64,000 nucleotides of DNA from positions 62,001 through 126,000 of the forward strand of contig NZ_KB908296.1 in the NCBI RefSeq assembly GCF_000382425.1, in the 5' to 3' direction. How positions within the stretch are numbered: the stretch's first letter is position 1; each line of letters starts with the position of its first letter. Both the position numbers and the translations under genes were made by a program. The notes beneath the pieces were generated by a model, which saw nothing but the letters and a program-made list of their open reading frames with translations, ran no database searches and was not told the origin of the DNA. Positions 583-56,711 of this stretch are shown here, in pieces. The stretch comes from Empedobacter brevis NBRC 14943 = ATCC 43319 (GTDB lineage: Bacteria; Bacteroidota; Bacteroidia; Flavobacteriales; Weeksellaceae).

Positions 583-2460
583 ATGGCTACTATGACACGT
601 TATATTTATATTTTTTTTATATTTTCATCAATTGTTTTAGGTCAAAAAAACAAAGGAGAAGATGCTATCCGACATTATTATACTATTTACAAAGACAACG
701 CAGATTCAGATTTAGACAAGGCATATATAGGTGCAAGGAAGGCATATGATTTGAGTAAGAACATAAACAATGAAAATTGGAGAGCAAAAGCAGCATATGC
801 TAGAGGTTATTGTTATTATTTGTATGAAAAAGATTCTGTAAGTGAAGTCTATCTTGACGAGGCAATTAATTATGCGAAAAAAATAAATGACAAAGCAATT
901 TTAGCGAAAGCACTTAATGTGAAAGGAAGTATTTATTCATATAAAAATAAGAATAAGAAAGCGCTTGAATATTTCCATGAATCCATAAAATATTCAGAAA
1001 AATCTGCAAAGTTATCCAATAATACGGCCAATGTTTTGAATAATATTGCTGATATTTATGTCACACAACAGGATACCATCAATGCTAAAAAATATTATCA
1101 CGAAGCTGTAAAAATTCAGCGAAAAAACAAGTTAGATAAGTCATTGAGTAATACGTACAACAGTTTAGGGGTTTTGTTTATGGATACAAACAAAGACAGT
1201 GCGTTGTATTATATCAATCAATCATTAACCTTAGCATTAAACAATAAACTAGAATATGACTTGGTAAACAGATACCTTAATATAGGTGTGATATATCTTA
1301 ATTTTAATGATGCTGATAATTATGACAAGGCTAAATATAATCTCATAAAAGCATTAGAATTTGCCGAGAAAAATAAGATGACTCGGTATAAATTTCAGGG
1401 AAATTTATATTTGGGCATTTATTATAAAAAAGCGAAACAGAATTTTATAAAATCTAAACATTATTTTGAAAAAGCACTATCATTTATTGACCAAAATAAA
1501 GACCAAGAATATAATTTGGCTCTCTATAAGGAATTAGCAGAAGTTTATCATTCGTTATCAGATTTTGAAAAAGCATTTGTTTTTAAGGATTTAGAAAATA
1601 ATTTAAAAGATCGTATTTCGAATCTGGAAAAAAGTAAACAAATTCATGAAATTCAAACAAAATTTGATGTAGAAAGAAAAGATTTTCAGATCAACTTGCT
1701 ACATCTTCAGCGGAAGAATCAAAAAATAGAAAATAGTTGGACGATTATTGTTTCGCTTATAAGCATTAGTGGTTTATTAGGCTTTGGAATAATTTACAGA
1801 AGTAGAGAAAAAAAGAGACATTTAGTAGAACAACAACAGAATGATATAAAACGAATGCAAGATGTCGTAAAAACTCAAGATAACGAACGTAATAGGATTG
1901 CAAAAGAGTTGCATGATGGAGTAGGAAATAAGCTATCTGTGATTAAAAATATTCTTCATCAAAAAACATTTTCTGAGAAAGATGTTGATGATTTAAAAAG
2001 CGGAACAAAAGATTTAATGAAAGAAATTCGAGAGATTTCACATAACCTGAGTATTTCTATCATTGTTCAAAAAGGACCGATGGAACTAATCACAGAATTG
2101 GTTGAAACCTTTAAGCAAAAAACATCTATTAAGACCGAGTTTGTATTTTACCCGCAAGAAGCCTTTGATTTTTTGAATGAAGAACAAAAGATGCATCTGT
2201 ATAGAGTTTTTCAGGAAGCTCTTCATAATATTGAAAAGCATGCTAATGCGTATAACGTTAGCATCACTGTGACAAAACGTGAAAAGAGGCTAATCATAGT
2301 ATTAGAAGATGATGGAAATGGATTTGATGTAACTCAAAAGAGTCCGGGTGTAGGTATCTTAAATATGAAGGAAAGAATGCAACTTATAAAAGGAAGTTTA
2401 ATCATAGATTCAGCCATAGGGAATGGAACAACAATAATAATAGAGCTCGATGAAAAATAA
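583..2460 (+). CDS. TPR-repeat sensor histidine kinase (HisKA_3 type)
   Basis: A membrane sensor kinase that should phosphorylate the LuxR-type regulator encoded next. The N-terminus is a signal peptide or membrane anchor. Residues about 25-350 form a series of tetratricopeptide repeats (YARGYCYY, LNVKGSIYS, LNNIADIYV and similar), followed by a coiled-coil stretch and one membrane helix at about 386-405. The kinase part begins with the HisKA_3 phospho-acceptor motif (AKELHDGVGNKLS, His444). It ends with a HATPase_c domain showing an N-box-like FQEALHNIEKHA, a G1 box DDGNGFD and GVGILNMKER. TPR kinases of this build are common in Bacteroidota; the signal sensed is unknown. ATG at 583 is used; ATG at 592 is also possible. 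It overlaps the next gene by 11 bases. Confidence 0.93.
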   Translation: MATMTRYIYIFFIFSSIVLGQKNKGEDAIRHYYTIYKDNADSDLDKAYIGARKAYDLSKNINNENWRAKAAYARGYCYYLYEKDSVSEVYLDEAINYAKKINDKAILAKALNVKGSIYSYKNKNKKALEYFHESIKYSEKSAKLSNNTANVLNNIADIYVTQQDTINAKKYYHEAVKIQRKNKLDKSLSNTYNSLGVLFMDTNKDSALYYINQSLTLALNNKLEYDLVNRYLNIGVIYLNFNDADNYDKAKYNLIKALEFAEKNKMTRYKFQGNLYLGIYYKKAKQNFIKSKHYFEKALSFIDQNKDQEYNLALYKELAEVYHSLSDFEKAFVFKDLENNLKDRISNLEKSKQIHEIQTKFDVERKDFQINLLHLQRKNQKIENSWTIIVSLISISGLLGFGIIYRSREKKRHLVEQQQNDIKRMQDVVKTQDNERNRIAKELHDGVGNKLSVIKNILHQKTFSEKDVDDLKSGTKDLMKEIREISHNLSISIIVQKGPMELITELVETFKQKTSIKTEFVFYPQEAFDFLNEEQKMHLYRVFQEALHNIEKHANAYNVSITVTKREKRLIIVLEDDGNGFDVTQKSPGVGILNMKERMQLIKGSLIIDSAIGNGTTIIIELDEK

Positions 2461-3052
2461 GATAAGAATAGCATTAATTGATGATCATCAACTTTTTTTA
2501 GATGGTTTAACAACATTACTTCAACAAGAAAAAGATTTTGAAATCATTTATACATCCACCAAAGCGACGGATTTTGTTGTTCAGTTAAAAGATCTTGCGG
2601 TTGATATTTTGATTGTTGATATTTCGATGCCGGAGATGAACGGGTTGGAATTGATAAATGAAATCAAACAACAAGAATTCTTACTAAAAATAATTGTTCT
2701 AAGTTCTTATGCTAATAGTATAGACAGCTCTTTTGTTGACGCAGCACTATTAAAGGAAATATCCGAAAAAGAATTATTTACAACGATTCGAACTGTTTAT
2801 AATGATACATATAAACAAAAAGTTAACATGCAGAATTTTAACGTTATTCATTCTTCTTTCCTGAGTAAAAGAGAGAAACAAATCATTAATTTGATCGGAG
2901 AAGGGTTGACGGTAAATGAAATTGCGAACAAAATAGTTTTGAGCAAACATACCATAGAAACGCACAAGAAAAATATCTTTTTTAAGCTTGGAGTAATAAA
3001 TAATGCCCAACTGATCAAAAAATCAATGGTATTGGGAATTATTGATGTATAA
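2450..3052 (+). CDS. LuxR/NarL-family response regulator
   Basis: A cytoplasmic DNA-binding regulator, the probable partner of the kinase whose 3' end it overlaps by 11 bases. The receiver domain (residues about 5-118) has the acidic pair DD at 11-12, phospho-acceptor Asp57 (LIVDISMPEMNG) and a Lys near 102. The C-terminal GerE/LuxR helix-turn-helix (about 138-200) is complete: LSKREKQIINLIGEGLT, then NEIANKIVLSKHTIETHKKN. The stretch between the conserved Ser-Ser of beta4 and the Lys is about five residues shorter than usual and lacks the typical AGAxGYLLK pattern, so the alpha4-beta5 signalling face may be altered. The targets cannot be told from sequence; the palindrome at 557-578 is a candidate. 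Confidence 0.93.
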   Translation: MKNKIRIALIDDHQLFLDGLTTLLQQEKDFEIIYTSTKATDFVVQLKDLAVDILIVDISMPEMNGLELINEIKQQEFLLKIIVLSSYANSIDSSFVDAALLKEISEKELFTTIRTVYNDTYKQKVNMQNFNVIHSSFLSKREKQIINLIGEGLTVNEIANKIVLSKHTIETHKKNIFFKLGVINNAQLIKKSMVLGIIDV

Positions 3053-3149: not shown

Positions 3150-3716
3150 ATGAAAAAAATTTTATTAAGTATCTTATTAATTTCATCATTTTTAACCTTA
3201 TCATCTTGTGGAGATAAAAAAGGAGGAAGAAATGATTTGTCTGAAAAAGATGAAATTGAAAATAGCAATTCAGAAGGGGTAGTTGTAATATTAGAGGGAA
3301 CTTTTTTGAAGAATGATATTTTTCAGTTATTTTATAGTAATGATACAACTTTTAGTGAACAAAAGTCCATAAAAACAATTGTATATGGTCAATCTATTTT
3401 ACAAAAGGTTTTGTTTCAATTACCAAAAGAGGTAAAACCTCAAAGTTTGCGGTTAGATTTGGGTAGTAATCCTAATCAGACATCAGTGACTATAAAGAAG
3501 ATGGAAATTAATTATAAAGATCAAATATTAATTATGGAAGGAGATACTTTCAGAGATTATTTTCAACCAACACCTAGTGTAGAATTTGATCAGGTTTCAT
3601 TAGAGTACAATTTGAAACCAAATGAAGATGGGACATTTGATCCTGTATTGTTTGGAAATGATAAAGTGAAGAAAGGATTGAACAAAATATATAATGAGTT
3701 AAAAGAAGATAAATAA
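3150..3716 (+). CDS. Lipoprotein of unknown family (paralogue of 6187-6735)
   Basis: A 188-residue lipoprotein with a lipobox (LSSCG, lipidated Cys20), so anchored in the inner or outer membrane. The mature domain shares a clear pattern with the protein at 6187-6735: FLKNDIFQLFY, FSEQKSIK, QLPKEVKPQSLRLDLG, and FDPxxFGN near the C-terminus. I do not recognise a named family. The pattern (a QLFY strand, a serine-rich turn, then LRxDxG) resembles small beta-sandwich modules that I recall being attached to surface-glycan glycosyltransferases, so a glycan-binding or assembly role is an inference only. It stands at the left border of glycan locus 1 and is convergent with the Wzy-like gene at 3754. 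Confidence 0.8.
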   Translation: MKKILLSILLISSFLTLSSCGDKKGGRNDLSEKDEIENSNSEGVVVILEGTFLKNDIFQLFYSNDTTFSEQKSIKTIVYGQSILQKVLFQLPKEVKPQSLRLDLGSNPNQTSVTIKKMEINYKDQILIMEGDTFRDYFQPTPSVEFDQVSLEYNLKPNEDGTFDPVLFGNDKVKKGLNKIYNELKEDK

Positions 3717-3744
3717 TTAACTCGAGAAAATCTATATTTTACGG

Positions 3745-3787
3745 TACAAAAAATCACTCTTTATTGAATTTAGGGTGATTTTTTGTA
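3745..3787. terminator. Bidirectional hairpin terminator
   Basis: A 13-base perfect stem (3745-3757 with 3775-3787) closes a 17-base loop; the arms contain A6/T6 runs. It sits between the convergent genes 3150-3716 and 3754-4989 and overlaps the last codons of the latter. Confidence 0.55.
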
Positions 3788-4989
3788 TATGTCAAAATAG
3801 ACAGTAAACATATTATAGATGTAAATACAATAAGCCCTTTTTGTCTATTCAGATAAGATTCTGTAAAGAAGGCAAGAATTAAAATAATTGCAACAGTGAA
3901 TAAAAAAATATTATTTGTTTTAATTGATTTGTAAATAGAGAAAACAAAAATGAATAATAAAATGAATAAACCTACTACGCCTAATTCTCCAAATGTTTGA
4001 AGGTATTGATTATGAAAATTCATAGCAAAGTATCCTTTGTATAAATTATAATAATGAAAGTATTGTTCTGTAAGATAATCTATATTCCCAAGACCTGTTC
4101 CTAAGAAACCTAATTGATTGTTATTAATCATTTCAAACACTATTCTCCAATGAAAAATTCTTAGATTGGAGCCATTAAATTCAAAATCAGAAAAATCTTG
4201 ACCATAAAGGATTTGATCTAAATTGAGAATAGTTTCATCTAAGAATCGTTGTTTTATAGGATTATCTACAAATAAAATTACACCACATAAAATGATAAAT
4301 AGAAATGCGAATTTCTTGTTTAAGTATAAATTTTTCTTCTTATATAGAGAGGAAATTATCAATAAACATGCAGTAGTTACTATTAAGTTTTTTGATGATA
4401 GTAGAATCAAAAAAATCAATAGCAAGATTACAATACAATAATCTAATTTTGTTTTATTTGGAAGGTTAAATTTTATTAAAAGGCAAATACTACTAAATAA
4501 GGCTATATAAATAGCATTGTTATTAAATATTGAAACGAGGTCATGATAAAAAAAAACATTTATCGATCTATGCAGAATGAATAGATAAGTAGAATGGATT
4601 AATGATATAAAAAAATATGCTATTAATGAATAACTAAAAATTGAAATGGTTATATTTAATTCTTTTATTGAGAATTTTTTATATTGGCTAATAGCTAAAG
4701 GTATAATTAATAAACCAATTGTTTTTCCAAAAGAAGATAATGTTTGAGGAGGATAGGTGGACCAAAAATAAGATAATATTCCCCACATAAACAAAACTAT
4801 AAATGGCAATATACATAAATATAGGTTGATTTTTTTCTTAAGAAAAATTGTGATAAAAAATATTGTAGAAACAATTATTAAGAGAATACTATTAATGGCA
4901 TGACCTGGGATTAATGAACTTAAGAACAAACCCCAAATTAGGGTTTTATTTTGTTCGATTAATTTTAATATTTGGCTTTTTGTTGGCAT
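3754..4989 (-). CDS. O-antigen ligase/polymerase family membrane protein (Wzy-like)
   Basis: A 411-residue multi-spanning inner-membrane protein with about ten hydrophobic helices. A long periplasmic loop (about residues 245-320) carries the pattern FLGTGLGNIDYL followed by FHNQYLQTFGELGVVGL, with the His-Asn and Gly-rich signature of the O-antigen ligase (Wzy_C / WaaL) superfamily. Members polymerise undecaprenyl-linked repeat units or ligate finished glycan to a lipid acceptor; sequence alone does not decide between these. It overlaps the end of the upstream glycosyltransferase by 25 bases, so the two are cotranscribed. A second Wzy-like gene lies at 8918-10054, so one of them may be the ligase. 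The start is ATG at 4989. Confidence 0.87.
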   Translation of the reverse strand: MPTKSQILKLIEQNKTLIWGLFLSSLIPGHAINSILLIIVSTIFFITIFLKKKINLYLCILPFIVLFMWGILSYFWSTYPPQTLSSFGKTIGLLIIPLAISQYKKFSIKELNITISIFSYSLIAYFFISLIHSTYLFILHRSINVFFYHDLVSIFNNNAIYIALFSSICLLIKFNLPNKTKLDYCIVILLLIFLILLSSKNLIVTTACLLIISSLYKKKNLYLNKKFAFLFIILCGVILFVDNPIKQRFLDETILNLDQILYGQDFSDFEFNGSNLRIFHWRIVFEMINNNQLGFLGTGLGNIDYLTEQYFHYYNLYKGYFAMNFHNQYLQTFGELGVVGLFILLFIFVFSIYKSIKTNNIFLFTVAIILILAFFTESYLNRQKGLIVFTSIICLLSILTYTKNHPKFNKE

Positions 4990-6065
4990 TCTATAATAAA
5001 ATCTAAATAGTTTTGGTTAATCTTTTTCCAAGAATATAAATCATGTATTTTTTGTATGTTATTCAAAATAAAACTTTTATGTTCTTTTTTGGAGGAATTA
5101 GAAAGATTAATAATATCTGAATCATTATCAAAGTATAGTGCATCCTGACCTAATATAGATTGATTAAAAATATTTCGGTTTGCAATAATCAAACAATTAG
5201 AAGCCATAGCTTCTAACAAAGATGGGTTTGTACCTCCTACTGAATGGCCATGAAAATAGATATTTGAAAAAAATCTAAGATTATTTAATTTATTTAAATC
5301 ATAAATACCTCCGTGAAATATAACGTTATCGTAAGATGAATAATTTTTGTAGAGATAATTTCCGAATTTTGTCCCTTTATGATTTCCGATGATAAATAGT
5401 CTCCGATGCGTATTGCTTTTAATGTAACCTTTTATAATAACTTCTATATTATTTTCAGGTTCCATTCGTGCGATGATAAGATCATAATTGTATGCTTTTA
5501 GCTGAAATTCAGTTAAAATATTCTCGTTAGGGGCATTAAAAACTTCAGCTCCATATGCAATGTATTTTGATTTTTTATTATATTTTTTTTGAATATATTC
5601 TTGTATACCAATTGAATCAGCTACTAAGAAATCACTATTGATTGCAGCTAATTTTTCAGCATATTTTAAAAAAAATTTAACTTTTGATGAATATTTAGAT
5701 CTTTTCCATTCTAATCCATCCATATTTGTAATAATAGTTGAACTTTTAGGTAACAAAAAATGCCATATACTACTACTTGTATAACCTAATTGAAGAATTA
5801 GGTCAAATTTCCGTTTTCTCGAATCTAAAATACAATTTAGATCATAAATAAATTGTCCAGCAGTACCGATTTTATCCTCAGGATCTTTACAATGAATTAA
5901 ATTTACCTTTCCAAACATCTTTTTTTGATAAGGATGAAGAGATGAGCAATACACATAAACTTCATGATTATTTTCAGCTAAGAAAGTAGAGAAAAACTCT
6001 GCAAACTGTTCAAAACCACCATGAAAATTAGGAATACCTCTAGTTCCTAAAATAGCTATTTTCAT
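4965..6065 (-). CDS. GT4 glycosyltransferase with DUF1972 N-terminus (rhamnosyltransferase-like)
   Basis: A 366-residue GT-B glycosyltransferase. The N-terminal half begins KIAILGTRGIPNFHGGFE, the hallmark of DUF1972, and continues with NMDGLEWKRSKYS and ADSIGIQEY. The C-terminal half is a glycosyl_transf_1 domain with the nucleotide-sugar motif SLLEAMASN. Family members such as pneumococcal WchF transfer rhamnose from dTDP-rhamnose; donor specificity here is inferred from that similarity. Cytoplasmic, acting on lipid-linked precursor. It is the first gene of a two-gene minus-strand unit with the Wzy-like gene, and a TACTTTTG box lies just upstream. Confidence 0.9.
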   Translation of the reverse strand: MKIAILGTRGIPNFHGGFEQFAEFFSTFLAENNHEVYVYCSSLHPYQKKMFGKVNLIHCKDPEDKIGTAGQFIYDLNCILDSRKRKFDLILQLGYTSSSIWHFLLPKSSTIITNMDGLEWKRSKYSSKVKFFLKYAEKLAAINSDFLVADSIGIQEYIQKKYNKKSKYIAYGAEVFNAPNENILTEFQLKAYNYDLIIARMEPENNIEVIIKGYIKSNTHRRLFIIGNHKGTKFGNYLYKNYSSYDNVIFHGGIYDLNKLNNLRFFSNIYFHGHSVGGTNPSLLEAMASNCLIIANRNIFNQSILGQDALYFDNDSDIINLSNSSKKEHKSFILNNIQKIHDLYSWKKINQNYLDFIIECQQKAKY

Positions 6066-6088
6066 TCAGATTTTTTTCAATATTCGTA

Positions 6089-6096
6089 CAAAAGTA
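6089..6096 (-). promoter_or_regulatory. Candidate -7 box (TACTTTTG) of the 6065-3754 operon
   Basis: The minus strand reads TACTTTTG, 23 bases before the ATG at 6065. It is embedded in a 12-base near-palindrome with GTAC at both ends. The -33 element is weak. Confidence 0.4.
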
Positions 6097-6159
6097 CATT
6101 TTTTATAATTATAAAAGTTATTATATTCTTAAATAGAGCAATCAGTAATAAGTTTTATT

Positions 6160-6167
6160 TAACTTTG
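6160..6167 (+). promoter_or_regulatory. Candidate -7 box (TAACTTTG) of the 6187-8910 operon
   Basis: TAACTTTG is a full match to TAnnTTTG, 19 bases before the ATG at 6187. No convincing -33 TTTG is seen. It is divergent from the box at 6089-6096. Confidence 0.4.
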
Positions 6168-6186
6168 AACCTTTAATCTATTTTGT

Positions 6187-6735
6187 ATGAATTTAGGAAT
6201 ATTGCAAATCTTCTTGTTTGGATTTTGCATGTCTTTGATTATTCTAGGATGTGAACAAAAGAAACCTATAGTTGAAGAAAGTTTGATTGTGAGGCTAAAA
6301 ATGTCAGTTTATAAAGACGATTCATTACAACTTTTTTATTTATTAAATGCTGATGATTCCTATTCAGAAGAGTTAAGTATTAAAAAATTTGTAAAAGGAC
6401 TTAATTCTATTCAAAATATTGAATTCATATTACCCCCTAGAGTGAAACCTAAAAATTTAAGAATTGATTTTGGAGATAAGAAGAATTATCATGATTCAAT
6501 TGGTCTATATAATATAAGCTTGATTTATAGAAATCATAAATTATCTGCTAAAGATGGAGAATATAAACAATGGTTTGTAACTAATGAAGATATTTATTTT
6601 GATAGCGATAGTTTATTATATCGTTTTAAGTCTAAGCAGCATAGTTTTGATCCTCAAATAAGAGGAAATGAATTGTTTAATAAAAAAATAGTAAAGTTAT
6701 TTACTCCTGATATCTATGAAAGAAGAACTCATTAA
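6187..6735 (+). CDS. Lipoprotein of unknown family (paralogue of 3150-3716)
   Basis: A 182-residue lipoprotein with signal sequence and lipobox (LIILGC, Cys22). It aligns along its length with the lipoprotein at 3150-3716: YKDDSLQLFYLL, YSEELSIKKFVKG, LPPRVKPKNLRIDFG, then FDPQIRGN. Both end with a charged helix. It begins a plus-strand unit and overlaps the exported GH99-like gene by 20 bases, which ties it to glycan assembly or processing. The family is not recognised; a glycan-binding beta-sandwich is the best guess. Two copies bordering separate blocks of one locus suggest that each serves a different module, or that one arose by duplication with the module. Confidence 0.8.
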   Translation: MNLGILQIFLFGFCMSLIILGCEQKKPIVEESLIVRLKMSVYKDDSLQLFYLLNADDSYSEELSIKKFVKGLNSIQNIEFILPPRVKPKNLRIDFGDKKNYHDSIGLYNISLIYRNHKLSAKDGEYKQWFVTNEDIYFDSDSLLYRFKSKQHSFDPQIRGNELFNKKIVKLFTPDIYERRTH

Positions 6736-7837
6736 CTATTTTAAGCATATAAAATGTATTATATATTTATTTTTTATTATTCCAATTTTTGTGAAATCTC
6801 AGCCTCAAATAGGTGCTTTTTATTTTGACGCCTGGACTGAATTTCAATGGGATAATTACATAAATAAGGGATTTCAAAAAGGTGCGTACAATGATGTACT
6901 AGTTAACGACTTTTTTATTAGAGAACCTGCTTACGGGTGGGTAACATCAAGTCAAAAAAAAATTGAACAACAGATAAATGATGCGAGTGAAGCAAATTTA
7001 GATTTCTTTATTTTTAACTGGTATTATTGCGAAGGGGTTGGGTATTCAAATTGTTTTATGAATAATGCTTTACAATATTATATGAAAGCAAAGAATAGAC
7101 ATAAAGTTTTATTTTGTTCTATGATAACAAATGATACTTTTGATATTGGACCAGATCAGTGGATTGAAACGAAAAATAATTTATTTATTCAATTTTCAAA
7201 TACGACATACTATAAAATAGAAGGAAGACCTTTACTATTAATTTACCAAGGAAATAGAATGATAAACTCTTTTAGTAATCTTAAATTATTTGATAGAGCT
7301 TTAAAGGAATTGAAGGAAGAGTCTATAGCGAAAGGTTTAGGAAAACCCATAATAGGAATAATGAATATTGATCAACAGTATTTTAAAAAGATGAGGAATG
7401 TAGATTTCTTTAGTACCTATAATGATCCTAATGCAGCTAAAAGAATATGTAATAAATGTGATCAAAAGGAATATTTGTATGAAGATTTACAAAAAGGAGA
7501 GCAAATTAGTTGGTATGAATCTTTAGTTTATTTGAATAAAAGGAAATTTTTTATACCAACAGTAACATCTGGTTGGGATGTTCGACCTTGGAAAGGAAAG
7601 AATGAACTAGGAGAGTGGAATACTGATATATGGTATAAGAGAGCGACTAAAGAAGAGTTGAAGACTTCTATTTTAAATGCTTATATGTTTAACAAGGATT
7701 ATCATACAAGAAACAAGCATGAAATAATATTCATTAATGCATGGAATGAATATGGAGAAGGTGGTTATATATCGAAAATGAAGTCGGGTGAATTTTTAGG
7801 AAGAGCAATTTCAGAAGCTAAAAATGAAATTAAATGA
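6716..7837 (+). CDS. WbsX-like / GH99-like protein with signal peptide
   Basis: A 373-residue protein of the WbsX family (PF14307), related in fold to GH99 endo-mannosidases. Seen directly: an N-terminal hydrophobic segment (about residues 14-27) that looks like an export signal, then IGAFYFDAWTEFQW, FFIFNWYYCEG and, near the end, FINAWNEYGEGGYI, the motif carrying the family's acidic residues. WbsX proteins in O-antigen clusters are usually called glycosyltransferases, but the fold belongs to glycoside hydrolases. The apparent signal peptide argues for action in the periplasm or on the surface. It overlaps the preceding lipoprotein by 20 bases and the following GT4 gene by 4, so all three are translationally coupled. 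Whether it cuts, trims or transfers glycan is not known. Confidence 0.85.
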   Translation: MKEELINYFKHIKCIIYLFFIIPIFVKSQPQIGAFYFDAWTEFQWDNYINKGFQKGAYNDVLVNDFFIREPAYGWVTSSQKKIEQQINDASEANLDFFIFNWYYCEGVGYSNCFMNNALQYYMKAKNRHKVLFCSMITNDTFDIGPDQWIETKNNLFIQFSNTTYYKIEGRPLLLIYQGNRMINSFSNLKLFDRALKELKEESIAKGLGKPIIGIMNIDQQYFKKMRNVDFFSTYNDPNAAKRICNKCDQKEYLYEDLQKGEQISWYESLVYLNKRKFFIPTVTSGWDVRPWKGKNELGEWNTDIWYKRATKEELKTSILNAYMFNKDYHTRNKHEIIFINAWNEYGEGGYISKMKSGEFLGRAISEAKNEIK

Positions 7838-8910
7838 ATGTATTATTTATAGCTAGAGCAACACTGTATGAATCTCCAGGAGGTGATACTGTTCAAATTT
7901 TAAAAACAGCTGAAGAATTAAGAAAATTAGAAGTTAATGTAGATATTTATTTGGCTAATAATAAAGAAATTAACTATGACTTATATGATATTGTTCATTT
8001 CTTTAATATAATACGACCAGCTGATATTTTATATCATTTTAAATTCTCAAAAAAAAGTGTTATTTCTACAATTTTTGTTGATTATGAAGAGGCTGAAATA
8101 AAATCAGGAAATTTTATACGATCTAATCTAACAAAATATTTAGGAGGAGATTTTATTGAATATTTAAAAGTTGTAGCAAGACATGTTCTTGGTAAAGAAC
8201 AAATCATAAGTAAAAAGTATTGGTATTGGGGAAATTATCGCTCCATTAAATATTTATACAACAATGCTTCAGCTTTGTTGCCAAATTCTGAAAGTGAAAA
8301 GAAGAGATTAATATCAAAATATGGTCAGACATCTGCTTTTTTTGAAAAAATAGTGAATGCAATTGAACCTATCGAATACATTGAATCGAATTATAAATAT
8401 AGAGATGCAATTATATGCGTCGGAAGAATTGAAAGAAGAAAAAATCAGTTAAAATTAATTAAAGCTGTAAAAAATCTTAATATTCCGTGTTATATAATAG
8501 GTAAACCTGCTATTAATGATTTAAAATATTATGAATTATGTAAAGAGGAGGCAGGGGAAAATACATTTTTTATTGATGGTATGCCACAACGAGAAATCTA
8601 TCAAATTATGAAAGCAGCTAAAGTTCATGTTCTACCTAGTTGGTTTGAAACAACAGGGTTAGTTTCTTTAGAAGCTTATTACTACCGATGTAATATAGTA
8701 ATAACAAAAAAGGGAGATCAAACAGAATACTTTAAAGACTATGCCTTTTATTGTGAACCGGACGATATAAATTCTATACGTAAAGCGATATTAGAAGCTT
8801 ATTCTAAGACTTTCAATGAAGAATTTAGAGAATACATCATAGCGCATTATACTTGGTCAGAAACAGCGAAGCAAACCAAAAAAAGTTATGAGAGATTATT
8901 ACAGAAGTAA
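7834..8910 (+). CDS. GT4 family glycosyltransferase
   Basis: A 358-residue GT-B glycosyltransferase, the last gene of the 6187-8910 unit (ATGA overlap with the gene before). The N-terminal acceptor domain starts MNVLFIARATLYESPGGDT, with the Gly-Gly-Asp loop usual for GT4. The C-terminal domain has the donor-binding region VGRIERRKNQLKLI and the EX7E-like motif WFETTGLVSLEAYYY. It should add one sugar to the lipid-linked repeat unit on the cytoplasmic face; donor and linkage cannot be told. Base composition is very AT-rich, like neighbouring glycan genes and unlike the core genes after 16 kb. Convergent with the next gene, seven bases away. Confidence 0.9.
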   Translation: MNVLFIARATLYESPGGDTVQILKTAEELRKLEVNVDIYLANNKEINYDLYDIVHFFNIIRPADILYHFKFSKKSVISTIFVDYEEAEIKSGNFIRSNLTKYLGGDFIEYLKVVARHVLGKEQIISKKYWYWGNYRSIKYLYNNASALLPNSESEKKRLISKYGQTSAFFEKIVNAIEPIEYIESNYKYRDAIICVGRIERRKNQLKLIKAVKNLNIPCYIIGKPAINDLKYYELCKEEAGENTFFIDGMPQREIYQIMKAAKVHVLPSWFETTGLVSLEAYYYRCNIVITKKGDQTEYFKDYAFYCEPDDINSIRKAILEAYSKTFNEEFREYIIAHYTWSETAKQTKKSYERLLQK

Positions 8911-8917
8911 AAATAGC

Positions 8918-10054
8918 TTAAAGTGCCATTTTACCATTTTTATAATAAAAGTAGAGTAATACCCACAAAATATTTGTACCAATTAGCATACTATATAGTA
9001 AATTGGTCTCCATTAAACCATACGATAAAAAGCTGATAACAACACAGATTGGAATTAAAGCCTTTTTAGTTGTCATATTAATAGAGGCTAGAATGTAAAA
9101 TAAACAAAAACCAATAAAAAATAAAATACCTCCTTCAAATAATAAATGTACATAGCTACTGTCGATAATTAAATCATCATAAGAACTACTACCAAAAAAG
9201 AAATCTTTAATGGTAATTTTATCAAAAAAACGATCATAATAAGTCAAACGTTTGCTGAATACACGATCAAGAAATAAGTACTTGTCTCTATTGAGAGAAA
9301 AATAGACTGTAATTGAAGTTAGAATAAGTACTAATAAAATAAAAGGAAATTTAGATATTTTTAAAATATTTTTTTTGTTTATTAATCCTCCTATATAATA
9401 ATAAGAAAATGAAGAATAGAGCATTATTAAAGACAAAAGAAAACTTCTTGAAGTTGTTTTTATATATATGTATACCCATAAAGGAGTAATTAATAGTAAA
9501 TACCAAGGAATATATTTTTTATAATCAGAATAATAAACCAATAGTAGACCATTTATAATCAAACAGTAATAATATAAAGTGGCTGCATTAGGATGCATAA
9601 ACCCAAATGACATTCGTGTTGTTCTATCAATCATGTAAGAGTATCCTCCAATATTATCCCCTTCCCCATAAAAAATAAACATTAAAACAAGGGTAATAGC
9701 TGTAATAATAAAACTAAAAAGTAAAAATTTCTTAAATCTTACAGCTGAAGCGGATTGTATAATTAATAATGGCATTAATACATTTAGTTTATACGGAGAA
9801 AAGTTAATTAAAGTATAAATGCCTAATATAATTGATATTGTGAGTAAAGATTTATATGTCCAATTTGAATAATTAAATGTTACAATTAATAAAAAATAAA
9901 CAAATAGATCAACAATTAACGAACGATCTTGTAAGACAGTGATAGAAATAAATTTTAAATTTAAAAAAAATAACAACAAAAAAACACCTAATTCTCTATA
10001 GGTTATTTTAATTTTTAAGCTTTTTTTATTATTGAATGAATGTGTTTGTTCCAA
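8918..10054 (-). CDS. O-antigen polymerase-like membrane protein (Wzy candidate)
   Basis: A 378-residue protein of mostly hydrophobic helices (about ten) with a periplasmic loop around residues 260-300. It has no enzymatic motif beyond a Wzy-like layout: SFGFMHPNAATLYYYC before the loop and SSYVHLLFEGGILFFIGF after it. Wzy proteins diverge strongly, so identification rests on topology, the HPN motif and the glycan locus. It probably starts with TTG at 10054, since no in-frame ATG occurs for about 90 codons; this makes a 40-base overlap with the glycosyltransferase upstream. Together with the gene at 3754 it gives locus 1 two polymerase/ligase candidates. Confidence 0.8.
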   Translation of the reverse strand: MEQTHSFNNKKSLKIKITYRELGVFLLLFFLNLKFISITVLQDRSLIVDLFVYFLLIVTFNYSNWTYKSLLTISIILGIYTLINFSPYKLNVLMPLLIIQSASAVRFKKFLLFSFIITAITLVLMFIFYGEGDNIGGYSYMIDRTTRMSFGFMHPNAATLYYYCLIINGLLLVYYSDYKKYIPWYLLLITPLWVYIYIKTTSRSFLLSLIMLYSSFSYYYIGGLINKKNILKISKFPFILLVLILTSITVYFSLNRDKYLFLDRVFSKRLTYYDRFFDKITIKDFFFGSSSYDDLIIDSSYVHLLFEGGILFFIGFCLFYILASINMTTKKALIPICVVISFLSYGLMETNLLYSMLIGTNILWVLLYFYYKNGKMAL

Positions 10055-11106
10055 AGTGGGATAATATTAATTTCTTTATAAATAGATGTGCTTTCTATTG
10101 CTTGGTTAGCTAGTTCAAATCTAAAATTTTTACTTTCAATCAATTGTATGAGTTTCTTTTCATAGTCATCTTTATCAAATAATGTAACTAAAAGCCCATT
10201 AATGTTAGGCTTAATTAATTTTTTTGCTCCTTCATTTTCATACGAGATAACTGCTAAACCATGGTTCATAGCTTCTAAAAGAGCTAAACCAAAACTTTCT
10301 GTATAAGAGGTTTGAGCAAATATGCTACTTTTTTGATAAAAATCTGAAATATTTTGAACATTTTTATGTATTTTAATAACCTTCGTTAGGTTCTTGTTTT
10401 CAATAATGGATAAAAGATGGTTGTATTCTTCTCCTTCACCAAAAATAATTAATTGCCAATCACGAAAAACTGAATGAATTTTTTCGAAAATATGTATTAA
10501 GTCTGAAAAACCTTTTTGATGGGTTAATCTTCCTACTGCAATTATGGTTTTATTATTTTGGTTTGACTTTATTTTCGAATCAAAAGGAAGGCTATTTGGA
10601 ATAACAAAAGTATTTGATAATTTATTGAAAAATTTTTGTTCTTCTTCACTTAAAACGACAAGACTATCTAGTCTTTTGTAAACATAATTTCTGATTTTTT
10701 GTATTAACTTGGAAGGATAGTGGTAAGTCACATGCTCACAACCAATCATTTTAGTAGAAGTTTTTTTACAAATAATGGGTAATAAAATATTATGCACATA
10801 GGTTGTACCCATTAATACATCAAATAAATATTCGTTATTAATACTTTTTATATTCTTAATAAATGAGTTATACCAGAAAATTTTATTATAAAGTTTAAAG
10901 CCTTCTTTTTTATTTAAATGAATAATTTTAATAGATGAATTAAGTTCATAAAAAGAGGTTTCAGTTGGATTTGTAAATATACTTATTATAGTTATATCGT
11001 ATGCCTTTGGATAAAAGCTTATTAAGCCATTAGTAAGATTTGAAACAGCTCTTTCAGTTCCAGCTTTGTTAGAAATATTATCAATTATAATAGCAATTTT
11101 TTTCAT
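10015..11106 (-). CDS. GT4 family glycosyltransferase
   Basis: A glycosyltransferase of about 363 residues. The N-terminus MKKIAIIIDNISNKAGTERA is the usual start of this family. The C-terminal domain shows VGRLTHQKGFSDLI, IFGEGEEYNHLL and the EX7E motif ESFGLALLEAMNHG. It transfers a sugar to the lipid-linked intermediate on the cytoplasmic side. The frame stays open to an ATG at 11142, but a perfect TTTG-N19-TATATTTG promoter covers 11124-11154, so that longer start would be untranscribed; ATG at 11106 is chosen. It is followed by the Wzy-like gene with a 40-base overlap. Confidence 0.9.
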   Translation of the reverse strand: MKKIAIIIDNISNKAGTERAVSNLTNGLISFYPKAYDITIISIFTNPTETSFYELNSSIKIIHLNKKEGFKLYNKIFWYNSFIKNIKSINNEYLFDVLMGTTYVHNILLPIICKKTSTKMIGCEHVTYHYPSKLIQKIRNYVYKRLDSLVVLSEEEQKFFNKLSNTFVIPNSLPFDSKIKSNQNNKTIIAVGRLTHQKGFSDLIHIFEKIHSVFRDWQLIIFGEGEEYNHLLSIIENKNLTKVIKIHKNVQNISDFYQKSSIFAQTSYTESFGLALLEAMNHGLAVISYENEGAKKLIKPNINGLLVTLFDKDDYEKKLIQLIESKNFRFELANQAIESTSIYKEINIIPLWNKHIHSIIKKA

Positions 11107-11123
11107 GAAATGACCATATTGAA

Positions 11124-11154
11124 CAAATATAGCATTGTCCATTAGTATTACAAA
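11124..11154 (-). promoter_or_regulatory. Bacteroidota promoter of the 11106-8918 operon
   Basis: Reading the minus strand, TTTG (11151-11154) is followed after exactly 19 bases by TATATTTG (11124-11131), a complete match to TTTG-N19-TAnnTTTG. The predicted transcript would start around 11116-11119, about ten bases before the ATG at 11106, giving a very short leader. It is the best promoter match in the window and decides the start codon of the gene below it. Confidence 0.72.
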
Positions 11155-11219: not shown

Positions 11220-12176
11220 ATGGATAATTGTGAAATTTCTGTAATTGTTGCTATTTATAATGCGGAAGAATTTCTTGAAAAATGTCTTGATTCGATTAAA
11301 GAACAAACATTTAAAAATTTTGAAGTAATCTTAATAAATGATGGTTCTTTAGATTCTTCTGCTGAGATATGTAATTCATATGTAAAAGATGATAATAGAT
11401 TTAAAGTTTTTCATATAGCCAATGAAGGAGTTGGTAATGCTAGAAATTTAGGCATAAAATCTGCTCTTGGTAAGTACATAATACATGTGGATGCAGACGA
11501 TTATGTTGAATCGGAATATTTAGAAATTCTTTACAATGAGATAGAAGCTAAACAATTTGACATGGTTTTTTGTAATTTTAATAGATTATATGATGATAAT
11601 AAATTAGTTATTGAAAATATTGAAGGATGCTATAGTCCAATAGACCTTATTAAAGAAATTTTATTAGGTAATCAATTAGGTGTATTATGGAATAAATTAA
11701 TGCGAACTGATATACTTAAAAAATATGGACTTAATGTTCAAAATCAAATTAACATGTGTGAGGATTTACATCTTACAATTCGTTATTTACTTAAATCCAG
11801 TAATATACATTTTGTAAATAAACCCTTATATAATTATCGTTATAATATCCATTCTTATAGTTATAATAGAAATTCTAATTCTTTTGTAAGTATGTTTTGG
11901 GTTGTATCTAGCTTAGAAACTGAATTATCTGAATATAAATCATTCTTAACTGAATATAAATTACAATTACGTAGGGATTTAGTTCTATTTGGTGATAGGA
12001 AAGAGTTTAAAAATATATATCCTGAAACTTATGATTACGTCATACGATCTAAAGTTTTAACTAATTTTCAAAAAGTATTATTATTACTTGAGCAAAAACA
12101 AATCTATTTTTTTGTAACATTCCTTTTGTATGTAAGAAAACTTATGAAGAAATTTAATTATTTTTTTTCAAAATAG
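11220..12176 (+). CDS. GT2 family glycosyltransferase
   Basis: A 318-residue GT-A transferase. It opens with the GT2 nucleotide-binding pattern ISVIVAIYNAEEFLEKCLDS, then INDGSLDSS, ARNLGIKSALGKYIIHVDADD (the DxD metal site) and a later ED motif (MCEDLHLTIRYLLK). It adds a sugar from a nucleotide donor on the cytoplasmic face of the membrane. It is a single-gene plus-strand unit between two minus-strand blocks; its last 23 bases overlap the 3' end of the convergent flippase gene. Acceptor and donor are unknown. Confidence 0.92.
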   Translation: MDNCEISVIVAIYNAEEFLEKCLDSIKEQTFKNFEVILINDGSLDSSAEICNSYVKDDNRFKVFHIANEGVGNARNLGIKSALGKYIIHVDADDYVESEYLEILYNEIEAKQFDMVFCNFNRLYDDNKLVIENIEGCYSPIDLIKEILLGNQLGVLWNKLMRTDILKKYGLNVQNQINMCEDLHLTIRYLLKSSNIHFVNKPLYNYRYNIHSYSYNRNSNSFVSMFWVVSSLETELSEYKSFLTEYKLQLRRDLVLFGDRKEFKNIYPETYDYVIRSKVLTNFQKVLLLLEQKQIYFFVTFLLYVRKLMKKFNYFFSK

Positions 12177-13437
12177 GTAGAGCATAATATAACATCCCTA
12201 TAGCTATGAATACTTGTATAAAACTATTAGCAATTGCTGCTCCTATATAATTAAATTTATAAATTAAAAGTAAACTGGTAGCCAATCCTATTATAAAACT
12301 TAATGAAAAAACTTTAAAAAAATCTTTTTCTCTTCTATTAGTCAGTAACACTAATCTTCCAAAAACTAAGTCTATGAAAGAGAATAAGGGAAATGTTATC
12401 ATAATTTTAAATACAAGGATACTTTTCTCTATATTTAGTTTGTTTGAATTTTTGTAAACAATATCAAAGATTAATTCACTTGAATAAAATAATATAATGA
12501 TTGAAATTATTAGAACTAAAGAACCATATTTTACAATTTTTACTAGTTCATTTTTTGCTTTATTATAATTAACTTTAAATAGGTTTGATATATATGGAAA
12601 TAAAGTGTTAATTATAGGCAGAACTAAACCTCCTATTGCTCTAATCAGCTTCTCTGCAGCTGAATAAATTCCGACAGCATAATCGCCGGAGAGCGTTCCT
12701 AAAATTAAAATATTAGTATATGCGGTTAATGTAACATATAATTCTGAAGAAAAAAGAGGGAATGCACTTTTTAATTGTTCTTTTATATTATTGAAAGGAC
12801 TGAAGGTAAATCTCAAATCAAAAATTTTATACGCCAATATGATAGACGTTATACCAGAGGCTATTAATCCTAGAGAATTAAAAAGGGGAACAACCCAAAG
12901 GGTATCTTTCGATTTTAGAAAAATAAAAATACAAATAGTAAATATTGTTTTATAAAAAACATTTATATAAGTTACAAATTTCATCTTTTGAGTACCATGA
13001 AATAACCATAAAGGAAAAATAACGTAACCTATTGTACTTAAATAACTATAAAAGTATATTAGGGAATTCTCTCTAAATTTAGGAATCAGGATTAATAAAA
13101 GAAAAAAAATGATAGAACAAGCTCCAAAAATCATTAGTTTAGTAGAAATAACATCATTAAATATTTTCTGAATCTTAGTGGAATTATGAATATTCACTGA
13201 GATTTCTCTAGTTGCAATTGTATTGAATCCAAATTCAATCAACATAATAAAGAAAATAACAATAGTAGATGCATAGGTTATAGTACCAAAACCATCAATA
13301 CCTGCTTTTTTAATGATAAAAGGAAAAGTAAGGAAAGGGAGAATTATATTTAAACCTTGTAGAATACTAAGAGATACTAAATTAGAAATTAAAACCTTAT
13401 AGTCCTTTTTAGTAATCAATTCAATTATTTTATACAC
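12154..13437 (-). CDS. Wzx-type oligosaccharide flippase
   Basis: A 427-residue inner-membrane protein with about 12 hydrophobic helices, of the polysaccharide biosynthesis (MATE-like MOP) superfamily that flips undecaprenyl-linked repeat units to the periplasm. The N-terminus has the usual layout: LSILQGLNIILPFLTFPFII, then GIDGFGTITYASTIVIFF. The central helices carry SSELYVTLTAYTNILILG and YSAAEKLIRAIGGLVLP, typical of Wzx. The start is GTG at 13437, twelve bases after the stop of the Wzz-like gene, so the two form an operon. It pairs logically with the Wzy candidates of this locus. Confidence 0.9.
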   Translation of the reverse strand: MYKIIELITKKDYKVLISNLVSLSILQGLNIILPFLTFPFIIKKAGIDGFGTITYASTIVIFFIMLIEFGFNTIATREISVNIHNSTKIQKIFNDVISTKLMIFGACSIIFFLLLILIPKFRENSLIYFYSYLSTIGYVIFPLWLFHGTQKMKFVTYINVFYKTIFTICIFIFLKSKDTLWVVPLFNSLGLIASGITSIILAYKIFDLRFTFSPFNNIKEQLKSAFPLFSSELYVTLTAYTNILILGTLSGDYAVGIYSAAEKLIRAIGGLVLPIINTLFPYISNLFKVNYNKAKNELVKIVKYGSLVLIISIIILFYSSELIFDIVYKNSNKLNIEKSILVFKIMITFPLFSFIDLVFGRLVLLTNRREKDFFKVFSLSFIIGLATSLLLIYKFNYIGAAIANSFIQVFIAIGMLYYALPILKKNN

Positions 13438-13449
13438 AAGAGTTAAGAG

Positions 13450-14352
13450 TTAATTTTGTAAAAAAATCTTCTTTTTATTTGAATAAATTACAATTATTGT
13501 AAAAAAGAAAAGAAATAATAGTGGGAAAATAATTTTATATGGTATAGATTTAACTTCTATATCTGATAGTATAGAAATATCATAAAAAGTTTTAGTTTGC
13601 TCAATTTGGTTTAATTTTAATCTACCAATTTGATCTACCAACCCTTGTTTACTTAATAATAAACCATTAATATCAGGATACATCTCAATATTTAGATCAC
13701 TTTTTCCTTGAGCAAGTTGAAGACCGCTTAATTTTTCAAAAACACCATTAGTATTTTTGATAGAAGCCAAAGTTTCTACAATTTTAAGTTCTGTATTTCT
13801 CTTTGAAATTTGTTGTGCTTTTAAAAAATGGGGTTGACTATTTAATTTAGATAAGAAAGATTTTATAATTCTTTCGCCTTTATCTTTACCTATTGTTGTT
13901 ATAGTAAGTAAGTGGTATTTGTAAATCTTTTCACTTTGGCCACCCTTATTATGATTAATAATATTTACATTATTTTCACTAAGGTATTCAGCTATTTTTA
14001 AATTGCCATCTGTAGAAACAAATTGATATACATCTATTATAGGTTCAATGTCAACTTTAACTATAGGTGAATCTTTTGATAATTTATAATTTGAAATATA
14101 CTCATATAAATAGGTTGAACTCTCAAAATTTGGAATCAAAATAATTTGATGTTCAAACTTTTTACTTTTATTTAGATCTAAAAAATATCCCACTACAAAA
14201 CCTAAAACAATTAAAGTAGTAACAATATAAATATGTTTAATGAAGAATTTAATGACTCTAAAAAATAAAGAAAATAAATTATTAACCACTGATAAAAAAT
14301 ATTGCCATAAAACATATAAATCTATTTCCTGATTAGTTTTTTCTTTATCCAT
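13450..14352 (-). CDS. Wzz-like chain-length determinant protein
   Basis: A 300-residue membrane protein with the two-helix layout of Wzz: a helix at about residues 39-57 (KHIYIVTTLIVLGFVVGYFL), a roughly 200-residue periplasmic part, and a C-terminal helix (SIPYKIIFPLLFLFFFTIIV) with a Pro just before it. It sets the length of the glycan polymer together with Wzy. It lacks the cytoplasmic tyrosine-kinase domain of Wzc proteins, as in Wzz regulators of O-antigen. It is the first gene of the minus-strand operon with the Wzx flippase; a TATATTTG box lies upstream. Confidence 0.8.
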   Translation of the reverse strand: MDKEKTNQEIDLYVLWQYFLSVVNNLFSLFFRVIKFFIKHIYIVTTLIVLGFVVGYFLDLNKSKKFEHQIILIPNFESSTYLYEYISNYKLSKDSPIVKVDIEPIIDVYQFVSTDGNLKIAEYLSENNVNIINHNKGGQSEKIYKYHLLTITTIGKDKGERIIKSFLSKLNSQPHFLKAQQISKRNTELKIVETLASIKNTNGVFEKLSGLQLAQGKSDLNIEMYPDINGLLLSKQGLVDQIGRLKLNQIEQTKTFYDISILSDIEVKSIPYKIIFPLLFLFFFTIIVIYSNKKKIFLQN

Positions 14353-14437: not shown

Positions 14438-14503
14438 TTATAAATTAAATTTTAATCAAATAAATACCATCAATCTTATTCAAAAAGATTGGTTCTAATC
14501 AAA

Positions 14504-15886
14504 ATGCAGTTAAAAAGAAGATTTACTCTAATTGAAGCAATTTTACATAGTATTATTCTAACATCAGTGCTTTTAGTCTTATTAAAGATACAGTATAAAT
14601 TACATATAAAATATATTGTTCCAACTTATAATGAACTGCTAGGGTTGCATTATAAAGCATTTATTTTAATTTTAATAAGTTGGTTTCTGTTGTCTTATAA
14701 TTTTAAATTTTATAATCTAAGATTTTGGAAATTTTATAGAATATTAACAAGTTTATTCAAAGTTTTTTTACCTTTTTCATTTATAGTTTTTACTATTTCA
14801 GGATTAAAAAATGAAGATTTATTATCAAAAGAGTTAATATTTGTTTACTTAGTCAGTACATTTTTATTAATTTTTTTAGTGAAACTAATTTCATTTTTAT
14901 TGCAAAAGAAAATTTTTCAAAAAGGTAATTATATCACGAATGTGATGATTTTTGGTTATAATAGTAATGTTTTAAAATTTAAAAAAATAACGGAAGAACG
15001 AAAAGATTTTGGGGTAAATATATTAATGCATATAGAATTTTTACATTTAAATGAAGGAATTGAAAAATATGAAGATTTAATTCTTCAAAATAACATAAAA
15101 TCAATTTATATTGCACAAAACCCGAACAATAATCAAGATGTGTATGTATTCGCAAAAGAGCTTAGTGAAAAGTATCATTTAGAGTTATTCTTTATACCTT
15201 TTTCATTTGAAGAAAAATTATTGAGTTTGAAAATTGATTATTTTGACACTATGCCAATTTATAGTATAAGAAGACATCCTTTAGATCATTACTCAAGTCA
15301 AATAATAAAAACCTTATTTGACATAATTTTTTCTTCGTTTGTGTGTGTGTTTATTTTAAGTTGGTTATTTCCAATTATCGCTTTATTAATCAAATTAGAT
15401 TCAAAAGGGCCAATAATCTTTATACAAAAAAGAAGAGGGCTCAATGGAAAAGAATTTGATTGTTTTAAGTTCAGAACGATGCGTAATGATGGAACGAACT
15501 CTATAAAGGCGACGGTCGTTAATGATAATAGAATAACTAGAATTGGAAATTTTCTTCGAAAAACAAGTATGGATGAATTGCCGCAGTTCTTTAACGTTTT
15601 AAATGGAGATATGTCTATTGTAGGACCAAGACCTCATATGATATCGCAAGATATGTACTATAGCGAAATCATAAGAAAGTATAATCTTAGAAATTATGTC
15701 AAACCAGGAATAACGGGCTTAGCACAAGTAAAAGGTTATAGAGGTGCAATAGATTGTGATAAAGATATGGAAGATCGTATACGTACCGATATTTTCTATG
15801 TACGAAACTGGTCAATTCTTTTAGATATACAAATTATTTATCAGACGGTTGTATTGGTTTTCAAAGGAGATGAAAATGCGATATGA
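14504..15886 (+). CDS. WcaJ-type undecaprenyl-phosphate sugar phosphotransferase
   Basis: A 460-residue polyprenyl glycosylphosphotransferase that starts repeat-unit synthesis by moving a sugar-1-phosphate from UDP-sugar to undecaprenyl phosphate. The N-terminal half has four to five membrane helices and a cytoplasmic nucleotide-binding-like region (VMIFGYNSNVLKFKK). The C-terminal catalytic bacterial sugar transferase domain shows KRRGLNGKEFDCFKFRTM, the catalytic Asp-Glu in TSMDELPQFFNVL, GPRPHM and PGITGLAQVKGYRG. The full-length architecture separates it from the short PglC-type enzyme at 56719. ATG at 14504 is used; a TTG five codons upstream is less likely. It ends locus 1, followed by a strong terminator. 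Confidence 0.93.
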   Translation: MQLKRRFTLIEAILHSIILTSVLLVLLKIQYKLHIKYIVPTYNELLGLHYKAFILILISWFLLSYNFKFYNLRFWKFYRILTSLFKVFLPFSFIVFTISGLKNEDLLSKELIFVYLVSTFLLIFLVKLISFLLQKKIFQKGNYITNVMIFGYNSNVLKFKKITEERKDFGVNILMHIEFLHLNEGIEKYEDLILQNNIKSIYIAQNPNNNQDVYVFAKELSEKYHLELFFIPFSFEEKLLSLKIDYFDTMPIYSIRRHPLDHYSSQIIKTLFDIIFSSFVCVFILSWLFPIIALLIKLDSKGPIIFIQKRRGLNGKEFDCFKFRTMRNDGTNSIKATVVNDNRITRIGNFLRKTSMDELPQFFNVLNGDMSIVGPRPHMISQDMYYSEIIRKYNLRNYVKPGITGLAQVKGYRGAIDCDKDMEDRIRTDIFYVRNWSILLDIQIIYQTVVLVFKGDENAI

Positions 15887-55564: not shown

Positions 55565-56711
55565 ACTCATCCGCATTACAACCATCCCTCTTTCACTTAA
55601 AGTGTTATTAAGAGGACAGTTAAGATATATGTCTAATTATTTTGAAGTAATTGGAGTTTCTTCCAATGACAAAGAGTTGGAAGAAGTGAAAAATGAGGAA
55701 GGAATAGCAGTGGTTCCGATTGAGATGTCTCGTAAAATCACACCAATTCAAGATATCAAATCCTTACTAAAAACGTATAATTATTTAAAAAAAGTTCAAC
55801 CGAAAATTGTACACACGCATACCCCAAAAGCCGGAATTGTAGGCATGTTAGCGGCAAAATTAGCAGGAGTGCCTATTCGATTACATACCGTTGCCGGTCT
55901 TCCCCTAATGGAAGCTACAGGGAATAAACGTAAGATTTTAGATTTTGTTGAGAAATTAACTTATTCATCGGCAACAAAAGTTTATCCAAATTCACAAGGA
56001 TTATATAATTTTATCTTACAAAATAAGTATACCTCAGTAGACAAATTAAAAGTAATAGGACAAGGTTCTTCAAATGGAATCGATACGACGTTTTTTTCTC
56101 GTTTACAAATTCCGGAAGAAAAACAATCCCAATTAAAAAAGGAACTCAATATACACCCAGATGATTTTGTTTTTGTTTTTGTAGGTCGATTAGTAGGAGA
56201 TAAAGGGATCAACGAATTAATTGAAGCTTTTTCAAAACTTAAAACTCAACACTTAAAACTTTTGTTGGTAGGACCTTTAGAAAGTGAACTCGATCCTTTA
56301 CAAGGCGAAACATTGAATGAAATTGAAACCAATTCAAATATCATCAGTGTAGGTTTCCAAAAAGATGTTCGTTCTTATTTTGCAATAGCCAATGCATTAG
56401 TGTTCCCAAGCTATAGAGAAGGGTTTCCAAATGTTGTGATGCAAGCCGGAGCAATGGAATTGCCGAGTATCGTTTCTGATATTAATGGATGCAATGAAAT
56501 TATTGTTGAAGGAAAAAACGGCACAATTATTCCGGTAAAAAATACTGAAGTATTAAAGATAGCTATGCAGAAAATGATTGAAGATAAAAACCTTTATCAT
56601 CAATTAAAGAAAAATGCTCGACCAATGATACAATCTCGTTATGAACAATCAGTAGTTTGGGATGCTCTTTTGGAAGAATATAATTTATTGCTTCGCCAAC
56701 TACCAAATTAA
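55554..56711 (+). CDS. GT4 family glycosyltransferase, second-sugar type
   Basis: A transferase of about 385 residues with [20 protein letters not shown] near the start and the GT4 acceptor pattern [20 protein letters not shown], then [14 protein letters not shown]. The donor domain has [20 protein letters not shown] and the EX7E-type region [20 protein letters not shown]. This type sits beside PglC-like starters in Bacteroidota, comparable to PglA/CapM, and probably adds the second sugar. There is no ATG near the start; TTG at 55554 fits the family best and TTG at 55545 is the alternative. Base composition is visibly less AT-rich than in the gene before. Confidence 0.9.

Follow-up and report, generated by a model that had tools for sequence, protein, structure and literature searches.

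Which step of surface-polysaccharide assembly might be served by two small, mutually similar lipoproteins encoded in a glycan locus is the question raised by the stretch of DNA analyzed here, a window of 64,000 nucleotides (nt) from a contig of Empedobacter brevis NBRC 14943, in whose positions coordinates are given below. The computational analysis places both proteins in a real family that, in the libraries and literature searched, appears to be undescribed, and its members may well be glycan-type-specific periplasmic accessory lipoproteins of Wzx/Wzy assembly in Flavobacteriales, which would bind the nascent chain. The two genes are as follows.

3150..3716, forward strand: lipoprotein 1, 188 amino acids (aa) (open reading frame (ORF), family profile, AlphaFold2 model)
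6187..6735, forward strand: lipoprotein 2, 182 aa, same domain as lipoprotein 1 (BLASTP, model, tree)

The lipoprotein pair and its family

An initial annotation had placed lipoprotein ORFs at 3150-3716 and 6187-6735 and had regarded them as paralogs of no recognizable family, and each of these points holds. Both proteins have the signal peptide and lipobox cysteine of bacterial lipoproteins, the signal peptides ending at SSC-GDKK in lipoprotein 1 and LGC-EQKK in lipoprotein 2. In lipoprotein 1, the signal peptide with the lipobox Cys20 is followed by a low-complexity linker (residues 21-41) and a beta-sandwich domain at about 42-181. A single BLASTP comparison aligned the two with 46/143 identities (32% over 143 aa, E 3e-21). 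Lipoprotein 1, searched against the whole genome, returned lipoprotein 2 as the sole match (E 4.7e-17), without a third paralog. All the motifs that had been listed as common to the pair are present: QLFY, a Ser-Ile-Lys turn (SIKT/SIKK), LPxxVKPxxLRxDxG (as LPKEVKPQSLRLDLG and LPPRVKPKNLRIDFG), and FDPxxxGN (as FDPVLFGN and FDPQIRGN). The Bacteroidota -7 promoter motif TAnnTTTG is found upstream of both genes, but its frequency in the window is not above chance.

No significant match to the family was obtained in Pfam, NCBIfam, PHROGs, PADLOC, or the PDB sequences. The best Pfam score was 14.8 of 27 bits (PF24711) for one window member, with nothing for the other; no Pfam family matched more than one of 12 family members, and the NCBIfam matches, all under the cut-off, covered the signal peptide only. 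Pfam scans up to E 5 gave no carbohydrate-binding module (CBM) model, no PLAT/LH2 or C2 model matched any of the 12 members, and the OPX domain of Wza-type export lipoproteins had no Pfam match. The family resembles Wza/OPX proteins, AlgK, and other export accessory lipoproteins in being encoded in polysaccharide assembly loci, but differs from them in having no matching Pfam domain and in being a small beta-sandwich rather than an OPX or TPR protein. An identity as a phage or defense protein was rejected because PHROGs and PADLOC gave no match, and kinship to BtSGBP-B, the only PDB profile match (E 0.15-0.31), was rejected because a short strand motif alone is held in common. No description of the family was found in the open-licence literature searched.

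A full-length profile (A1) gave matches in the family at E values from 1e-5 to 1e-3 that for the most part aligned chiefly over the signal peptide, and a domain-only profile removed them. With the latter, the family was found in 14 of the 395 genomes of an order sample, while a phylum sample yielded 10/395, all of them Flavobacteriaceae or the window's own genome. It is present in 119/299 Flavobacterium genomes, in eight of 14 Empedobacter genomes by a single-protein search (the window genome's relatives in the genus include E. tilapiae and E. falsenii), and in two genomes from a further Weeksellaceae genus, where one of the copies is a pseudogene. With these genome samples, the family is therefore known only from Flavobacteriales, in which it is rare outside Flavobacterium and Empedobacter, none being seen in other orders. 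The plasmid search found no member; a viral-contig match (L003, 37% over 55 aa) lies inside a phage tape-measure protein and a weak match in genome G022 (L011) inside an OmpA-like lipoprotein, and both were dismissed as chance. The most conserved positions are D56, Y62, Q85, P92, R101, D103, N107, Q110, F138, and P165. In locus L080 (genome G062, about 9600-10200), a family copy adjoining genes for a DUF1972 transferase and a ligase is broken by an in-frame stop.

Linkage to Wzx/Wzy loci

Gene neighborhoods were read for 60 loci with 74 members, a set that was chosen partly for diversity rather than at random and that includes all order-level matches with an intact copy; the counts omit L130 and L131, where the short gene is masked by a longer overlapping ORF, and the broken copy of L080. 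Within 5 kb, all 74 members have a gene for glycan biosynthesis and 58 of the 74 a Wzx flippase, for which about 1% would be expected, as estimated from genome size and the three to five PF01943 genes per genome counted in twelve of the genomes. The initial annotation had proposed that repeated co-occurrence with Wzx/Wzy genes in Bacteroidota would support a role in glycan assembly, and that homologs scattered away from glycan genes, or a match to an unrelated known family, would speak against it; the co-occurrence is what these counts reveal, and neither of the contrary outcomes was encountered in the loci read. Constant linkage thus identifies the family as a component of Wzx/Wzy polysaccharide loci, whose product is probably O-antigen.

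A Wzz-like gene is directly upstream of 20 members and Wzx directly downstream of 28, and Flavobacterium loci most often have AMP nucleosidase, Wzz-like protein, lipoprotein, Wzx, and then the polymerase and glycosyltransferases in this order. Paired copies occur within one locus in 14 loci including the window, often in tandem, as in Flavobacterium microcysteis (Wzz-like, lipoprotein, lipoprotein, Wzx). Some members adjoin other membrane proteins, namely PMT, DUF6311, or MBOAT. The DUF6311 proteins in or directly beside L012, L014, and L081 (about 830 aa, PF19830) are likely membrane glycosyltransferases. The Wzz-like neighbor is called only that because it has no firm match: none in PDB or NCBIfam, and, over ten members, a single match to PF02706 (E 0.083). 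The protein at 13450-14352 and 43 ORFs homologous to it in related loci, which have two transmembrane helices and are kept beside AMP nucleosidase in Flavobacterium, may themselves form an undescribed family of chain-length-type proteins.

Frequent gene exchange at such loci and the patchy occurrence of the family might suggest a passenger gene that a recombination hot spot carries along and that plays no role in glycan assembly. This is highly improbable, since the gene is kept in the 119 Flavobacterium and eight Empedobacter genomes always with glycan genes, its residues are conserved, and it is fused to glycan proteins, as described below.

Co-variation with the polymerase

Co-variation was assessed by partial Mantel tests on distances, with the housekeeping gene AMP nucleosidase as the control and p obtained by permutation. 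Given AMP nucleosidase, the lipoprotein correlates with Wzx at 0.425 (p 0.001; 28 loci with all genes) and with Wzy at 0.716 (p 0.001; 18 loci with a recognized polymerase), and the latter value is 0.599 once Wzx is also removed. The Wzz-like neighbor tracks AMP nucleosidase (rho 0.70) and Wzx only weakly (0.14). The neighbor therefore follows the species, whereas the lipoprotein varies with Wzx and especially with Wzy; between L076 and L139, for example, AMP nucleosidase is about 100% identical, the lipoprotein 33%, and Wzx 30%. Because linkage alone could yield some co-variation, these values establish membership in the variable cassette, not glycan binding.

The same co-variation would be accounted for by the main competing explanation, in which the periplasmic domain binds not the glycan but the cognate Wzy protein (or Wzx or the ligase) and thereby controls the activity of that protein or the length of the chain. 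That the strongest correlation is with Wzy, even after removal of Wzx, and that the lipoprotein gene most often stands with the Wzz-like gene on one side and Wzx on the other agree with such a protein partner. The fusions described next, however, are to AlgX- and OstA-type handlers of glycan or lipopolysaccharide (LPS) and none is to a polymerase, and members also stand beside such different membrane proteins as PMT, DUF6311, and MBOAT, so a partner of Wzy seems possible but somewhat doubtful.

Fusions and cellular location

The domain is found fused in three of the loci. In L082, it is flanked by transmembrane helices, and an AlgX-type acetyltransferase domain (PF16822, E 1e-17) comes after it; an MBOAT gene adjoins. 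In L119 (5527-7629) and L120 (4276-6381), from two Flavobacterium species, it forms the C terminus of an OstA/LptA-like protein (PF13100, E 1e-46 and 2e-44), which is the only OstA of the genome, is encoded inside the polysaccharide locus, and is about 140 aa longer than OstA elsewhere. Both kinds of fusion partner are, we take it from what is established for their families, periplasmic. Free-standing members are unlike OstA/LptA-like proteins of LPS transport in that they have no OstA repeat region.

AlgX of alginate assembly is an SGNH acetyltransferase with a C-terminal CBM (PMC4148444), and the L082 protein is similar in joining a beta domain to a periplasmic polysaccharide O-acetyltransferase; the family domain is, however, N-terminal in the fusion, it has no sequence kinship to known CBMs, and nearly all members are free-standing. 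By analogy with the proposal made for the AlgX module, the family might act in the periplasm as a modification factor that brings the polysaccharide to O-acetyltransferases or other acyltransferases, for which the L082 fusion beside MBOAT and the co-directional run of MBOAT, SGNH-like, and lipoprotein genes in L083 (the SGNH-like gene being judged by eye, with no Pfam match) could be cited. This is unlikely, and it cannot be the general role because a recognized MBOAT gene is present in only three of the 60 loci.

A lipobox is found in essentially all free-standing members, which would also suit an anchor at the cell surface, or a lipoprotein exposed there, that retains capsule or O-chain on the cell exterior. 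The surface-export motif of Bacteroidota after the cysteine is CxK(D/E)2, QA(D/E)2, or SDD (PMC5080379). In its strict form it occurs in three of 70 members and is absent from the other 67, among them the window pair (CGDKK, CEQKK); positions +2 to +6 are net positive or neutral, and AlgX and OstA, to which the domain is fused, are periplasmic, which makes a surface anchor quite improbable. A periplasmic placement is therefore preferred from the export signals and fusion topology. Of the two roles that the initial annotation had offered, glycan assembly or glycan anchoring in the periplasm, the former is supported by the linkage, whereas anchoring at the surface has become the less likely with a motif in 3/70.

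Predicted fold

The AlphaFold2 models of lipoprotein 1 (residues 41-188, mean predicted local distance difference test score (pLDDT) 92.6) and lipoprotein 2 (pLDDT 87.5) have the same confidently predicted beta-sandwich with a C-terminal helix. Together with the one AlgX-type fusion, this supports the earlier suggestion that the pair are free-standing versions of small beta domains otherwise joined to polysaccharide transferases. The top VIA matches of both models are vCBM60 structures (PDB 2xfd and 2xhh; Z 8.2/8.2 and 7.8/7.6), with alignments of 96-110 residues, root mean square deviations of 3.1-3.6, and 6-9% identity, in a Z range reachable by common arrangements. CBM60 is a calcium-dependent carbohydrate-binding module of secreted glycanases, while the present family consists of lipoproteins of assembly loci and, apart from the structural match, shares neither a Pfam CBM match nor a Foldseek E value below 1e-3 with it. 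For neither paralog did Foldseek searches of PDB and viral models yield a match at E <= 0.001, so the resemblance to CBM60 is taken as a lead only. Galectin rows in the Foldseek output (template modeling score about 0.15) were discarded as meaningless.

The glycan block of the window

The block from 3.1 to 15.9 kb around the lipoproteins encodes a Wzx, an O-antigen ligase-type protein, an initiating transferase, a putative polymerase, a Wzz-like protein, and four glycosyltransferases; L121 and L122 in the following list are Flavobacterium loci.

3754..4989, reverse strand: O-antigen ligase/Wzy_C-type membrane protein (PF04932, E 3e-18; counterparts with 44% identity in L121 and 46% in L122)
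4965..6065, reverse strand: GT4 glycosyltransferase with DUF1972, rhamnosyltransferase-like (PF09314; 61-62% in L121 and L122)
6716..7837, forward strand: WbsX/GH99-like protein with a hydrophobic N terminus at 8-26 (PF14307, E 4e-12)
7834..8910, forward strand: GT4 glycosyltransferase (PF00534; 66% in L121)
8918..10054, reverse strand: putative Wzy-type polymerase, membrane protein (no Pfam match; homologs in L121 and L122)
10015..11142, reverse strand: GT4 glycosyltransferase (ORF and locus comparison)
11220..12176, forward strand: GT2 glycosyltransferase (ORF and locus comparison)
12154..13437, reverse strand: Wzx flippase (PF01943, E 1e-43)
13450..14352, reverse strand: Wzz-like protein, transmembrane helices 36-54 and 274-292 flanking a periplasmic segment (topology); its chain-length role is assumed from topology and position
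14489..15886, forward strand: initiating sugar-phosphate transferase (PF02397, E 7e-65)

In the family tree, lipoprotein 2 belongs to a clade with one copy each from L121 and L122 (support 100/98). Among the loci read, the polymerase at 8918-10054 has further copies solely in the same two loci (54-60%), which also carry the same ligase, DUF1972 transferase, and Wzx, and the window block is therefore a cassette common to two bacterial families. In four other Empedobacter, the gene directly after lipoprotein 1 encodes a homolog of the initiating transferase.

Lipoprotein 2 had been thought to be translationally coupled to the GH99-like protein and a glycosyltransferase. The overlaps exist in the window, 6716..7837 sharing 20 nt with the lipoprotein 2 ORF and 4 nt with the GT4 gene at 7834, but the coupling is local: no WbsX gene stands beside the lipoprotein in L121 or L122, which have the same cassette. 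The WbsX/GH99-like protein is the sole one among all loci read.

Just upstream of lipoprotein 1, a TPR histidine kinase and a LuxR-type response regulator are encoded at 583-3052; the pair is present in genome G002, apparently decayed in E. tilapiae (a kinase fragment and a split regulator, L051 9113-9922), and absent in others. A second polysaccharide block at 40908-63470, with rmlA/B/C-like genes, a Wzx at 48265, several glycosyltransferases, and a sugar transferase at 56662, has no member of the lipoprotein family.

Discussion

If the lipoproteins do act in glycan assembly as accessory factors, their lipid anchor would hold the domain at a membrane, facing the periplasm, and, once Wzx has flipped the repeat unit, the beta-sandwich would bind glycan of its own type, either this unit or the growing chain. 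The cognate glycan might thereby be held near the polymerase or ligase, its modification might be aided, or finished LPS might be passed toward the Lpt bridge, and that one glycan would be made in greater amount or length or be exported better. Where a locus has two paralogs, each might have its own step or its own part of the chain. A more specific form of this proposal, which we regard as doubtful, is that a serotype-matched lipoprotein recognizes the periplasmic O-chain and delivers completed LPS to the OstA/LptA bridge, coupling Wzy polymerization to Lpt export, with the OstA fusion representing a permanent contact.

Several observations count against glycan binding by an accessory lipoprotein. 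Some 60% of the sampled Flavobacterium genomes are without the family, which is therefore not generally required; the co-variation may stem from joint transfer of linked genes rather than specificity; unrelated beta-sandwiches can score as high as the Z of 7.6-8.2 obtained with CBM60, and the PLAT/C2 domains of lipases, lipoxygenases, and alpha-toxin come just 1-2 units behind; and the family has no recognized carbohydrate-binding signature.

Accessory carbohydrate-handling domains in polysaccharide assembly are already known from AlgX (PMC4148444), and it is the family itself that appears to be undescribed. About 40% of the sampled Flavobacterium genomes carry it in the locus that determines the type of surface antigen, nameless in the curated databases searched. 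No such glycan-specific escort is known to be described for Wzy-dependent O-antigen, and none was found in the literature searched. If the cognate glycan is recognized, the family would represent a missing periplasmic step of Wzy-dependent assembly in Bacteroidota and a new carbohydrate-binding family, and it would also provide an antigen-type marker beside Wzy, where the typing scheme of F. psychrophilum uses membrane genes only (PMC5601056). Through the fusion to OstA, a connection of O-chain assembly with LPS transport becomes open to direct test.

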